Source: Tetraselmis striata (lineage: Eukaryota; Chlorophyta; Chlorodendrophyceae; Chlorodendrales; Chlorodendraceae). Taken from it: 64,000 bases of DNA. The notes under the pieces were generated by a model. It had not been told where the DNA came from. It did not search any database and saw only the letters and a list, made by a program, of their open reading frames with translations. Made by a program: the position numbers and the translations under genes. Shown in pieces: positions 1,756 to 63,849 of the stretch. The stretch spans positions 1 through 64,000 of the forward strand of contig VCJN01000997.1 of the NCBI GenBank assembly GCA_006384855.1. Direction: 5' to 3'. Numbering within the stretch: the stretch's first letter is position 1; each line of letters starts with the position of its first letter.

Positions 1756-4700
1756 ATGGAGGGCGTATGGAACCGCCCTGACGAGGAGTGCGAGGGTGGC
1801 GAGCTGTGGTCTGATCTGGGCGATCTGGAGAGCGGAGGACTTCGCCACTCAGACCGCGGCAACAGTAACAGCCTGTATGCCGACGGAGGTGGCGGTGGCG
1901 GCGACGATGTGGCAGCCGACGGCGGTAACCCCAGCGCCTTGGCCGCGGCTGGCGGCGACCCGGACGCGGTCATCCTCCACGTGGACATCGACGCATTCTA
2001 CTGCGAGGTGCGGTGCGGCCCTCCTCCACCACCCCCCCCCCCCCCCCCACCCCGGGCCCCACCATGCCTGTTTGTCCCATGGTGGCTGCAGACGGCATAG
2101 CATAACAACCCATTTCATCATGGAATTTGAAAACTCTGACGAGATAGGTACAGCTGGAGGACAGGTGATAGGCGAGGCAATAAAAAGTGTTCATGGAAGG
2201 CCAACTACACCGGGCTTGTACTCGTGCGCATGTGAACCCAGAAGCGAAGCGTCCCACGTCGGGGAATTTCTGTGTCTCCACAGCTGCTATTCTGAACAAC
2301 TAACGCCCACAAGCATTCATTCGCAGCAGCCAGCAACCCACCTTGCCGCCCCCCTGAGCATCCGAGACCCCATCCCCCGTTGCCATGTCCCAGGTGGAGA
2401 GGATGGACGACCCCAGCCTGCGCGGGGTGCCCCTCGCGGTGACGCAGTTCAACGCGGGCGGCTTCGTGGCGGTGTCGTACGAGGCGCAGGCGGCGGGGCT
2501 GCGCAAGGGCGACGGCGTGGGCGCCGCGGGGCGCGCCAACATCACCACGCTCATCGAGATGCGCGCGGTGGGCGTGGAGGAGGCGCGCCGGCGGTGTCCG
2601 GGGCTCGTGGTGCGCCCCATGCGGACGGAGCGGTACCGGCAGGTGAGTGCCAGGGGCTCGCATGGCCCGGCATAGACAGACCGCCATGACAGAAGCGTAA
2701 AGGGGTGTCATTGCTGGCGGGGGACTACGGGTGCCGACGAACCGTTATGCGAACCCTTCTTATAAGCCAAAAAGGGGTTGCATGTAACTCATAGGAACAG
2801 TTGCTACTCTTCCGCATGTTTCGTCTACATTTGGCTGCTTGCAGGCAGGGCAGGTGCTCATTCGCAGCGTACCTATTGCAGCATCGGCACCGGTGAATGG
2901 GGAAGCAGCAAAAGTGAGGGGGTTGGGGGAGGCTTAACGCGCGGCGCGGCATGGTGTGCGGCAGGTGGCGGCGGAGGTGCAGGAGCTGCTGCGCGGCTGG
3001 GCGCTGCGGGGCGAGGTGGAGAAGGCCAGCTACGACGACTTCTACCTCGTGCTCGCGCCGCCGACGCAGTGGCCGGCGCCGCTGCCCGCCGCGGCGCAGC
3101 CGCCCCCGGGTGGCCTGCACGTGGTGGGGCCGCCGGGGAGTGCGCTCCGGGGCGCCATGCCGGCGGCGTGCGGCGCGGCGCGGGCCATCCAGGCCGCCAT
3201 CGCCGCGGCGGGGCTGAGCGCCTCCCTGGGGGTGTCGTCCCGCAAGCTGCTCGCCCGCCTGGCCAGCCCGCTGCACAAGCCGGGCGGCGTCACGGCGGTG
3301 GCGCCCGCCGGCGCGGCTGCCTTCCTCGCGGAGCAGCCCCTGCGCCACGTGCCCGGCTGGAAGGGCAAGGCGGGCGCCGCTGCGTGCGAGGCCCTGGGGG
3401 TGGTCACGGTGGGGGAGCTGGGGCGCTTCCGCGACGCGGAGCTGCGCGCGGCACTGGGCGAGAGTCCCGCTGCCGCGCTGCTGGACCTGCGCGCCGGCTG
3501 CCCGGGGCTGCGCGTCCGGGAGCGCGGTCCGCCCAAGACCATCCTCGCCGAGAGGTGCGCGCCATGACCTCCGCCTTCCCCTCCCCCCCCCCCCCCCCCC
3601 CCCCGCCCCCTCTCCCACACACACACACACAGCCTACGTTTCCAAAATCTGACCAAATCGACATAGACATTCTTATAGTTGTGCCGTCTTACCGCTTTTG
3701 TCACTCCGCACTGAAAACCCGTCTGCACCCCCACCGCCATCACCACCAACGCGTCAAGTTTTTGGCGTCGTAGGATCGATAACGATGTCTCCTGCCTTGG
3801 CCTCCGTATTATGTGGTTGCCATTGCTGTCGCCACGTGGCGACTGGGTCTGCTGCACGTGTGACCAATCTGCAACCACCACCGGAAATGTTGACACCAGC
3901 CCATGCCTTGCGTTTCTTTGGGAGCGCAAGTGTGGAATACGGCGGCATTGCTCGATAGTCGGATGCGGAAAATAGTGCCTGTTGGAAGAATGTCGGGCAC
4001 CCGTCACGCAGAATGGACCAGTGCCGTGTGTTTAGAGGCGCCGGCGTACCGATAAGAAGCCGTACAACATGCCCTAAATTGGGCGCTGCATACAACCTGT
4101 GAGAGCGTTGGCTGTAGTTCCGCAATAGTTTCGGTCTACAGTTGACCTGTGCCGGGCAGGGCGCCTTCTTAGTCGCAGTGTTCTTATTACCGCGTCAGCA
4201 CCCGTAAAACATATATCTGTAAATCATCTTACACTGCCTTTTGTGGACCGGTGTATTCTAGCGGATGTCTCGTCCTCGCATTACTGTATATATATAATAC
4301 TAGCGCGTAGGTGGCAAACATGTACACGGCGGTGCTTGGCCCTGTTTTGCCACCCTTCTAGCGTTTATTTTCCTATTTCTATTAATTCTGGCACTGATAA
4401 ATAGTTTTGTATATGCGCGTTAAATATCGCGTTCAGATATACCGTACAAGGATTACCTGGCGCGTAAGTAATATTGTAACGCGTGATGCTGCTGCCGGTA
4501 GCGGAATGGTTAACGATAGCTTATTGCCGTGCGCCGGTCCGCATTCCTGCATCAAACAACGTAACTTCATCAAACAGCAATGCATGTAGCGACTATGTTG
4601 TTTTTGAACAAATGGGCATCGATACAAACTCTGTCAAACAACGTACGTACGGTAGCACTATCCGAAATCGCACCGCAACACGACCGAGATGCATCTGTCA

Positions 4701-61700: not shown

Positions 61701-63849
61701 TCATCCGCCGCCTGGCGCAGCTCAGCCAGCGCGTGGCGCTCCGCTTCCAGCGCCGCGGCCGACAGGGAGGCGTCGCTGCGCAGGCCAGCTGCCTGCTGCT
61801 CGGCCGCCTCAAGCTTGGCCTGCAGCGGGTAAACACCACGAGGCGAGGCGCTCAGTGACGCCTGGCAAACCGTTTGCGTAGTGATTGTACCACCAATGAA
61901 CTATTGTCTTACATTCGCCTAACTATCATTTACATAACATCCTATTGGATTTGCGGGTCACAAGAAGAATGCATTGATTTGCAGCAACGAGTCAAAAGAA
62001 CCGTTTGGTATTCGTGGTATACTTTACATTTCAAAAATCTGTTTTTCGCGCCAGGGGTGTGGAGAGGGGGGGGGGGGGGGGGGTCCAAAACGAATACATA
62101 CCACGGACCCAAAGCATGGTCACGGTATACTGGGTTCAGATTGAGCCTAGACGGCGCGCTGGCAGGAAAAAGGGGGGGGGGGGGGGGGGGGGGGGAGTCA
62201 CCTGCAGCTCTATCCTCTGCAGCCGCGTTGCTTCTAATTCCTCCTGTAACAACGTCCCAGCCATTTGCCAGGGAGAGCTAAATAAGTGTTACAATGTATA
62301 TGGCATAGTGGTGTGGTCTCAACAATGTGTTCCCCTGGGAACCATGTGTAGGTGGGGTGGGTGGGTGGGTGGTGGTGGTGGGGGGCGGGGGGGGGGGGGG
62401 GGGGGGGGGGGGGTGGGGAGGGGTACCTGCAGCTCCATCATCTGCAGCCGTGTCGCTCGCAATTCCTCCTGTACCGAGGCCCCAGACATAAGCTAGCTAG
62501 GAAGAGCTAAATAAGTGCAATGTAAATGGCACATTGGCGCGGTCTCTATAATGTGTTCCGCTGTTGAACCATGTTGGGGGGGGGGAGGGGGGGACACCTG
62601 CGTGGCATCCGCCTGCGCCTTGCTGTGCTCTGCCTGTGCGACCGCGCCCGACAGCTGCGCCGCCAGCCGGCTCTCGCGCTCCGCCGCCTCGGCGCGCGCC
62701 TTCTCTGCGCTGCCCTGCGCAGCCTGGAGCGCCTCCTCCAGCTCGACGGCGCGTGCCTGGTGGCGGCCAGCCTCCGCCTCGAGGGTCTTCGCCTACCATG
62801 ATCAAGCCGATCGCAATCAGGGCGCCTCATATGGTCTAATGACCGAAGCATTTTGAACCTTACACCTACACAAATTCATATTGGTAGGTGCTTTGGAGAA
62901 ACAAACCGTGAAATCACAACGAAGCTTTTGGCGTTGTTCATGATATTCACACACGCACACACACACATGCGCGCGCGCGCGCACACTCGAGGCAGCAGCA
63001 TTTAGTGTGAATATTGTATGTGACTCATCAATGTGCCGAATCAATACCGACATAAAATCAAGAGGTACTTGAACTTGCTGCCGAACCATTCATAAAGAAA
63101 CACACCCTTAATCAAAACTCCAATATCGTTTTGGAGTACTGTATAATAATGTCATGCTAAGAAGTAAGCATTTGGATCGATTTGAAAGCGATAATGACAG
63201 GCGGACGAGTGGCCGCTACAGCCCCGGGATGGCTACTACATGGCCGCTCCCGAGGCTAGGAGCTGGTGTGGCACCTTGGCGACCAGCTGCGCCCGCTCCG
63301 CGAGTACCGCCGCGTTCCCCTCCTGCACCTTCTCCAGTTCTGCGCTCACCGCCGCCAGCTGCGCCTCCAGCGATTCCGTCCGCTGGCGGCCACCATCCAC
63401 GGTTCGACGCAACTCGGCGAGCGCCGACTCCACCTCTGACGCCTGCCGAACCATCGCCGCCTCCGTGGCAGCCTGCTTGGCTTCCGCCTCCGCCAGCTTG
63501 CCGCGGTGCGCCGCCGCGATCTCGGCTTCGCGCTCCAAGAGGTCCGCTCTGGCGCGCCGCTGGATGATCTGCGTACAGTGGTGGCGCAAATTATTATAAG
63601 CGAGGTTTCGGCTGAAATCTTTCATATATGCAAAACATGCCCTAACGTCTCATTACTTGTCAAAGCGTTCTTGGTTTGGCCGAATTGCGATTTAAGCAAT
63701 CGCATAATACGACACGAGACCGATGTTACAACGTTGCGGTCGACACTCACCTCGATCTCGGCTCGCATGGCTGCCTCGCTGCTCTCTAGCTCCGCCGCCA
63801 TCTTGATCGACTGGTCAACTAGGCTGTTGCGAGTGGCCTCCAGCTCGCC
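49769..63849 (-). CDS. Large coiled-coil protein of unknown function, 5' partial (19 exons in window)
   Basis: Exons, all phase-consistent: 63849-63751, 63568-63275, 62792-62598, 62468-62427, 62243-62202, 61819-61619, 60978-60493, 60142-58801, 58464-58252, 57923-57682, 57323-57175, 55865-55617, 54182-53969, 53391-53272, 53119-53066, 51300-51166, 51046-50960, 50315-50223, 49822-49769 (TGA). About 1436 residues are visible. The first ~800 are almost continuous Ala/Glu/Arg heptad coiled coil (e.g. AEAEARCAREVEAAAARVAA). A Ser/Pro-rich linker follows in the 1342-nt exon, then shorter coiled coils, acidic stretches (SDEEGSSRDEEDSE) and a short Gly/Pro-rich tail. The pattern fits a golgin-, kinesin-tail- or centrosome/basal-body-like scaffold, but no diagnostic domain is visible and the N terminus is outside the window. 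The acceptor chosen for 51300 and the last exon are the least certain parts. Confidence 0.8.
54337..54428. repeat. (ATAC)n and (AC)n microsatellites
   Basis: About twelve ATAC units followed by CATT variants and then an AC run, in the intron between exons 55617 and 54182 of the coiled-coil gene. Confidence 0.95.
55131..55380 (+). mobile_element. tRNA-derived SINE, copy D (full length), antisense in coiled-coil gene intron
   Basis: Begins with the tRNA-like head CCGCTCGGTTGAGCGGTCGT, CGCATACGAGAGGTCC and the B-box match GGATCGATTCC. It continues with the common body (CCGGCGTGTCCCGGGTTTAC, GATGCATTAGCCC, CCTACGACTGCAGTTGG, GCGGCTTCGGCCGATG) and ends GGGGCGAACTTTACTTTTC. A poly-C run lies about 40 nt further on. 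With copy A it defines the family's ~250-bp consensus. Confidence 0.8.
61413..61464. other. Short perfect-loop hairpin in coiled-coil gene intron
   Basis: Arms 61413-61435 and 61442-61464 pair over 23 bp with only two G:T positions (on the plus strand), around a 6-nt loop. Lies in the intron between exons 61619 and 60978. It could be a small-RNA-like hairpin or chance in AT-rich DNA. Confidence 0.45.
62160..62598 (-). repeat. Tandem duplication of a 14-codon coiled-coil exon with its intron
   Basis: Exons 62468-62427 (EELRATRLQMMELQ) and 62243-62202 (EELEATRLQRIELQ) are 42 nt each and paralogous. The intron upstream of each also matches: taagtg.aatgta.atggca, gtggtctca.aatgtgttcc and aaccatgt at 62285-62350 and 62512-62573, each ending in a poly-G (sense poly-C) tract next to the donor. 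The duplicated unit is ~225 bp. Confidence 0.85.

Follow-up and report, generated by a model that had tools for sequence, protein, structure and literature searches.

In the window analysed here, a stretch of 64,000 nucleotides from the chlorophyte alga Tetraselmis striata (contig VCJN01000997.1 of assembly GCA_006384855.1, positions 1 to 64,000 of the forward strand), long runs of C lie just downstream of splice donors on the sense strand, and the same bias is found in predicted introns sampled elsewhere in the assembly. These long runs are the tail of a wider C-rich, G-poor pattern at intron starts. The reading that we favour, with about as much belief as doubt, is that the pattern reflects a C-rich intronic splicing enhancer beside the 5' splice site, which would be read by a KH-domain protein and in which some tracts would have been expanded by slippage.

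Results

Long C-runs behind splice donors

Introns were predicted with a two-strand hidden Markov gene finder, for which C- and G-runs of at least 8 nt were masked equally on both strands. It was trained on 292,713 bp (about 293 kb) of the 224-Mb assembly (2903 contigs), namely the window, 19 of the 20 sampled loci and six 10-kb loci of one contig, merged where adjacent into 18 sequences; L019 (287 bp) and the loci of two U1 small nuclear RNA (snRNA) genes, L021 and L022, were excluded, and introns truncated at the end of a sequence were disregarded. This resulted in 290 introns, 225 of them outside the window, with the donor consensus MAG/GTGCGC and the acceptor consensus GCAG/G. All boundaries are predictions, and the gene finder fuses adjacent genes and takes some intergenic DNA for introns. 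Recognisable among the predicted proteins are the DNA primase small subunit, NOG2, a PP2C phosphatase, MMS19 and a polymerase eta-like enzyme.

Within 40 nt of the donor start 40 sense C-runs but only 4 sense G-runs of at least 10 nt, compared to 71 C-runs and 39 G-runs further inside the introns. Expressed as density, this corresponds to 3.45 C-runs per kb near the donor and 0.40 per kb elsewhere, and to 0.34 and 0.22 per kb, respectively, for G-runs. Random placement within the same introns (5000 trials) put only 11.5 ± 3.0 C-runs within 40 nt, with a maximum of 23; for G-runs, 2.7 were expected by random placement. The excess persisted outside the window (27 C vs 3 G), under neutral masking (34 C vs 4 G in 308 introns) and outside the window after removal of three repeat-bearing loci (25 C vs 2 G in 193 introns). 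The bias peaks at the donor but is not exclusive to it, and the tract follows the direction of transcription and not a fixed DNA strand, as an earlier note on the window, made from its sequence alone, had proposed.

The same pattern was seen outside the window in introns with junctions backed by protein alignments. Alignments to solved structures were judged by eye, and a junction was accepted if no gap lay within 3 residues of it, which was the case for 7 of 11 junctions in the primase, 8 of 9 in NOG2, 7 of 7 in PP2C, 3 of 4 in a threonine dehydratase-like part and 7 of 8 in MMS19. A C26 run is present at the one MMS19 junction that was rejected; for the dehydratase, the junction left out represents a false model with 11 extra residues. 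Five of the 32 accepted introns have a C-run within 40 nt and none a G-run, while at 40-99 nt there are three C-runs and two G-runs. After runs of 8 nt or more were cut out, C exceeded G in 27 of the 32 introns and fell below it in 4; positions +7 to +66 of the 30 introns of at least 110 nt contained 670 C, 398 G, 320 T and 270 A, and the middles of 17 introns were balanced, with 1185 C and 1206 G. One alignment-supported intron (59541-59656 of the joined loci L023-L028) starts with GC in place of GT, reading GCGCGC.

Genome-wide, the donor-like word MAGGTGMG is followed by C13 after 1-30 nt in 1159 cases (171 for the reversed-pattern control). At 91-120 nt, C13 was counted 482 times (control 172) and G13 410 times (control 160), and the C13/G13 ratio falls from 2.25 at 1-30 nt to 1.18 at this distance; the ratio is probably diluted, because MAGGTGMG words need not be real donors, and the gapped pattern may count one tract more than once. 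A looser word, GTGMGT, gave 2586 matches for C (control 1024) and 2885 for G (control 2454). MAGGTGMG was adopted because the GTGMGT counts are inflated by repeated elements, which were seen among both the C and the G listings. A genome-wide bias in orientation and distance, on which the earlier note had made its observation depend, is present in these pattern counts.

A C-rich zone beyond the long runs

Near the donor, C tracts are enriched over the intron interior 1.4-fold for C3, 2.1-fold for C4, 4.1-fold for C5, 2.8-fold for C6-7, about 6-fold for C8-11 and about 6-8-fold above that length. The corresponding values for G tracts range from 0.6 to 1.6, with the exception of G12-16, whose 5-fold value rests on two runs. 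Dense tracts and words were analysed in 235 introns, with introns shorter than 100 nt and those of L011, L013 and L020 set aside. Tracts with at least 10 identical bases in 14 nt occur at +4 to +63 in 48 of the 235 introns for C, in 6 for G and in none for T, whereas in intron middles they occur in 3 of 143 introns for C and in 9 for G. At +7 to +46, C exceeds G in 69% of the 235 introns. The words most enriched near donors are CCCCT, CCCCC, TCCCC, CCTCC and CCCTC; words such as CCCCT, TCCCC and CCTCC are of the kind preferred by poly(C)-binding proteins.

The sense skew, defined as (C-G)/(C+G) with runs of 8 nt or more cut out, is -0.03 over the first 20 nt, where the G-rich donor word lies, and rises to +0.16 at 20-40 nt, followed by +0.12 at 40-60 nt and +0.07 at 60-80 nt; it is near zero at 120-220 nt, with a later bump of +0.07 at 240-260 nt, and exons lean towards G (-0.079). 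Since pyrimidines make up a share of 0.59 after the donor and a barely lower one of 0.56 before the acceptor, the donor side is marked by C and not by pyrimidines in general. In the open-licence literature that was searched, no report on algae or Chlamydomonas was found that describes introns beginning with poly-C or a C-rich stretch.

Lengths of the long runs

The lengths of C- and G-runs are bimodal: counts drop to a length of 9-11 nt, followed by a second mode near 20 nt, whereas A- and T-runs stop at 10 nt. Between repeat copies in L013 and L020, one run measures 15 nt in one copy and 24 nt in the other, with identical flanks of 80 nt on either side, and another 18 and 20 nt, with identical flanks of 80 and 74 nt. 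Length therefore varies between copies with the same flanks, as in slippage-prone homopolymers; these differences fit an unstable homopolymer, and an error of assembly in tract length is also possible. Repeat copies in L013, L020 and L011 carry poly-C/G tracts at the same places and with different lengths, and these could be allelic contigs.

The ratio of long C-runs to seeds of 5-8 nt is 35:59 at donors and 62:274 elsewhere in introns (odds ratio 2.6), which suggests that long C-runs are somewhat favoured or better tolerated at donors.

Tract-bearing donors in the window

The earlier note had described at least 14 introns with a C-run of roughly 12-25 nt located about 5-35 nt past the GT. Indeed, all 14 named donors consist of GT followed by a sense C-run, which starts at +6 to +33, so that presence and position of the tracts were confirmed, whereas the length range was too narrow, with runs of 10-27 nt and a length of just 10 at two of the donors. 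The gene models recovered 12 of the 14; the remaining two, 15132 and 62201, were missed, yet they are plausible and open in the exon frame. Overall, the window contains 44 C- or G-runs of at least 10 nt and a single A-run of 10. Its predicted introns hold 26 sense C-runs and 13 sense G-runs in all, of which 13 and 1, respectively, start within 40 nt of a donor and 13 and 12 lie further in. Within the window, the bias lies mainly at donors, and none is seen deeper in introns.

On the plus strand, intron 1 of the polymerase eta-like gene (2008-2393) carries a C17 tract at 2032-2048, starting at +25, and its junction is ungapped in the alignment to polymerase eta. A further intron of this gene (3555-5165) carries a C22 tract at 3583-3604, starting at +29; the alignment spans this junction with a small gap about 5 residues on. 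An intron at about 2643-2964 of the same gene, which the gene model split in two, represents a counter-example without a tract.

All other tracts belong to the minus strand. In the putative TEX10 gene, so named in the earlier note, a C25 tract (14333-14357) starts at +6 of donor 14362 and a C22 tract (13574-13595) at +11 of donor 13605. A C21 tract (15101-15121) starts at +12 of donor 15132, where the gene model places the donor at 15222 and the frame is open to 15132, and a C20 tract (13051-13070), absent from the earlier list, lies 33 nt past the predicted donor 13103. The RRF intron (45715-45969) has a C17 tract (45930-45946) at +24 of donor 45969; both joined frames match the RRF family, and the exact junction was placed where we take it to lie in this family. 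The remaining tracts are C20 at 50195-50214 (+9 of donor 50222), C16 at 50931-50946 (+14 of donor 50959, with a sense G21 run at 50894-50914 later in the same intron), C24 at 51126-51149 (+17 of donor 51165), C10 at 53248-53257 (+15 of donor 53271), C25 at 58744-58768 (+33 of donor 58800), C24 at 62172-62195 (+7 of donor 62201), C27 at 62387-62413 (+14 of donor 62426) and C10 at 62576-62585 (+13 of donor 62597). Between 62150 and 62600, a short exon (EELEATRLQ...ELQ-like) is found in tandem copies, each followed by a poly-C intron; donor 62201 apparently belongs to another of these copies, and the similarity between the introns of 62426 and 62597 reaches 82% across 79 nt. These three donors are not fully independent, because they seem to be tandem copies of one exon and intron.

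The four runs that had been named as breaking the rule are real and all sense G, and more of them exist, as the count of 13 sense G-runs given above indicates. They are a C18 on the plus strand (11546-11563), which is sense G in a minus-strand intron, a sense G13 (16543-16555) and two sense G19 runs (20453-20471 and 54214-54232), the coordinates of all four referring to the plus strand.

Apart from the tracts, the window contains a long (CATATA)n array at 6701-7081, with 63 copies of the 6-bp unit, and a frame of 420 codons at 18361-19623 with a weak match to the Pfam family zf-RVT (E 0.017, under the curated cut-off). This frame sits within a predicted long intron of the opposite strand and is perhaps the end of a reverse transcriptase. 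In the whole assembly, 63 matches to chlorophyll-binding proteins indicate a photosynthetic organism and, together with the presence of introns, an alga.

Discussion

A putative C-rich splicing enhancer

The C-rich pattern is tied to donors, specific to the RNA strand, graded in most introns and faded by about 120 nt, which points to splicing. Most likely, the sense-strand C-rich zone, which extends from just past the donor to about +100, would act as an intronic splicing enhancer, in that a KH-type poly(C)-binding protein would bind the C-rich RNA and help the U1 small nuclear ribonucleoprotein (U1 snRNP) to engage the donor, a role modelled on that of TIA-1/Nam8 at U-rich RNA. Separately, some short C tracts may have grown to unstable runs of about 20 nt through a process that expands C/G homopolymers. 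With sense C seeds concentrated after donors and long tracts tolerated or favoured there, the runs would come to follow the direction of transcription. The earlier note had offered three interpretations side by side, a role in splicing through a C-tract-binding protein, a G-quadruplex/i-motif effect during transcription and descent from an intron-generating element. The first of these is the best fit to a feature that is sense-specific, donor-tied and present in weaker form in most introns, although its function is deduced; the other two did not hold up, as detailed below.

A candidate reader is encoded in the genome, namely a four-KH protein (at 62.6-64.9 kb of C4, within locus L030, C4:61501-66000), whose best match among solved structures in the PDB is PCBP2 KH1-KH2, with Nova-1 close behind. 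Predicted introns of this gene itself carry a C29 tract at +36 (intron at 481) and a C26 tract at +4 (intron at 2398). A second locus (L029, C1064:8001-15000) encodes a protein with three KH domains and a WW domain, and a long C tract is absent from the starts of all four of its predicted introns.

An adaptation of U1 to the tract was considered and rejected. U1 pairs with the donor through its 5' end, and the one U1 gene that was read, L021 of the pair L021 and L022, has an ordinary 5' end (ATACTTACCTG), even though C is the commonest base at donor position +4; such an end offers no G-run for pairing with intronic C.

A bolder form of the enhancer reading would be that a near-universal C-rich enhancer replaces the U-rich site of the TIA/Nam8 type, with the four-KH protein acting together with U1, and that the length of unstable poly-C tunes splicing in a very large number of introns, those of the four-KH gene among them. 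This we regard as unlikely.

Several observations weigh against the enhancer reading. Long runs are present in just 38 of the 290 predicted introns, and in the subset with strict splice sites the bias is weaker (10 C vs 3 G in 97 introns, and 5 C vs 2 G in the 70 of them outside the window). Sense G also occurs downstream of donors or donor-like words: MAGGTGMG is followed by G13 after 1-30 nt in 514 cases, above the 142 of the reversed control, and two alignment-supported MMS19 introns carry sense G-runs at 62 and 69 nt. The acceptor side shows a similar tendency, with 10 C-runs and 2 G-runs ending within 40 nt of the acceptor and a smaller C skew of +0.09 at 40-60 nt upstream of it. Donors with a tract are not weaker than others (mean score 5.24 vs 5.11, p = 0.69) and the C excess is uncorrelated with donor strength (rho 0.01), so that compensation of weak donors was not supported as the role of the tract; the C excess is also slightly lower in longer introns (rho -0.20). 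Finally, KH proteins are widespread, and the presence of one therefore discriminates little.

Alternative explanations

The chief rival, which we consider possible although clearly less probable than the enhancer, is that in a GC-rich genome, where the donor has to remain unpaired, a C-rich, G-poor start keeps the RNA there open without any binding protein, the long runs being harmless extremes. Indeed, the first 60 intron nucleotides fold with -14.8 kcal/mol, compared to -18.6 kcal/mol for C/G-balanced sequences of equal GC content, a difference of about 3.8 kcal/mol, while intron middles differ from balanced sequences by only 0.3 kcal/mol (158 introns), and the C excess is spread over about 100 nt and not bound to a single fixed spot. 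However, the donor window from -20 to +60 is slightly more structured than its own shuffles, structure could be avoided with A or T just as well, yet T tracts were found in none of the 235 introns, and avoidance by itself leaves unexplained why long runs exceed short seeds at donors. It could hold together with the enhancer reading. Somewhat less probable still is that the long runs are by-products without a function of their own, produced by slippage that lengthens C seeds wherever intron starts are C-rich. The restriction of the second length mode to C and G, the differing tract lengths in repeat copies with the same flanks and the roughly 3-6-fold enrichment of seeds of 5-11 C near donors are all in line with this, whereas the greater number of long runs per seed at donors, compared to the rest of the introns, is not. 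Since such slippage leaves the C-rich zone unexplained, it completes the enhancer explanation more than it replaces it.

Effects at the level of transcription, such as suppression of R-loops or G-quadruplexes or transcription-coupled mutation, could likewise make the sense strand C-rich, and the bias does track transcription and not a fixed DNA strand, with sense C-runs still above G-runs deep in introns. Such effects would be expected to reach the whole transcript, yet intron middles are balanced and exons lean towards G, sense G-runs are not depleted at donors and the bias is tied to intron ends; we therefore consider this explanation, and with it a G-quadruplex or i-motif effect, quite improbable. 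Descent of the introns from copies of an element with a tract near its 5' end is more improbable again. Several algae are named as having introners, which would give introns a common feature at a constant distance within them (PMC9860276, in the passages cited), and a transposon-like repeat of about 1.6 kb (C101:32220-33892 and C102:67943-69623), whose inverted ends begin with GTGAGT, carries poly-C some 20-25 nt inside both ends. In contrast to such elements, the C-run introns of our sample share no sequence. When sample introns of up to 3 kb were compared by BLAST with runs masked, 74 similar pairs were found, of which seven aligned on the same strand within the first 60 nt; six of these involve copies of a single repeat in L013 and L020, the seventh is a tandem pair in L012, and in none of the seven do both introns carry a C-run. 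Many near-identical introns, the mark of introners, were thus not found among the predicted introns of up to 3 kb in the 293-kb sample, and the tract is present in conserved genes without shared intron sequence. Equally hard to credit is an artefact of sequencing or assembly, for example dark-cycle poly-G. Near-identical repeats disagree in tract length, so that lengths may be unreliable, but an artefact can follow neither the strand of a gene nor the position of its donors, and it cannot produce the short C tracts that accompany the long ones.

Implications and comparison with known systems

Descriptions of splice donors are generally limited to the few bases paired with U1; this alga appears to add a second signal, made of C, just inside the intron, which is pronounced enough to be recognised by eye. 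If the signal is functional, another base, and probably another family of proteins, can serve the position of TIA/Nam8-type sites, and a splicing signal can be subject to microsatellite expansion. The C tract is also a strong feature for annotating genes of this lineage, and the differing tracts form a natural length series for testing how much C a donor needs.

A green-lineage precedent for a KH protein in splicing is HOS5 of Arabidopsis, a KH-domain protein that is needed for splicing and whose mutant retains introns under salt stress (PMC3798263). It differs from the system proposed here in that the passages on HOS5 cited name no C-rich site beside donors.

A closer likeness is provided by the human enhancers attributed to PCBP1/PCBP2. 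In intron 7 of SMN2, insertion of C after position 10 increased exon inclusion to about the same extent as insertion of U, and this effect was strongly correlated with the number of C, whereas poly-C after position 15 suppressed splicing until the flanking GCACC was broken up, a result that also tells against a general enhancer role and that the authors blame on a GCACC silencer (PMC8789036). With opposite outcomes at the two positions, the effect of poly-C depends on its context. PCBP1/2 were suggested by the authors, the protein being assumed rather than tested in the part of the study cited (PMC8789036). What the two systems have in common is C-rich RNA directly beside the 5' splice site, which the tracts described here show on the RNA strand; as far as the cited sections go, the human case consists of single minigenes and cassette exons, whereas here the C-rich zone is the rule among introns, is known from sequence and includes pure C-runs of about 20 nt, which set it apart (PMC8789036).

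In terms of position, the pattern resembles the sites of TIA-1/TIAL1 and Nam8. TIA clusters were defined 10-28 nt downstream of the donor, and TIA shares its role with yeast Nam8 (PMC2964331, passages cited). In both systems a pyrimidine-rich element occupies the same place, about 10-30 nt downstream of the donor, where the runs of the window also start. The base is different, since TIA-1/Nam8 sites are U-rich and the introns of this alga have C tracts in the place of T tracts.

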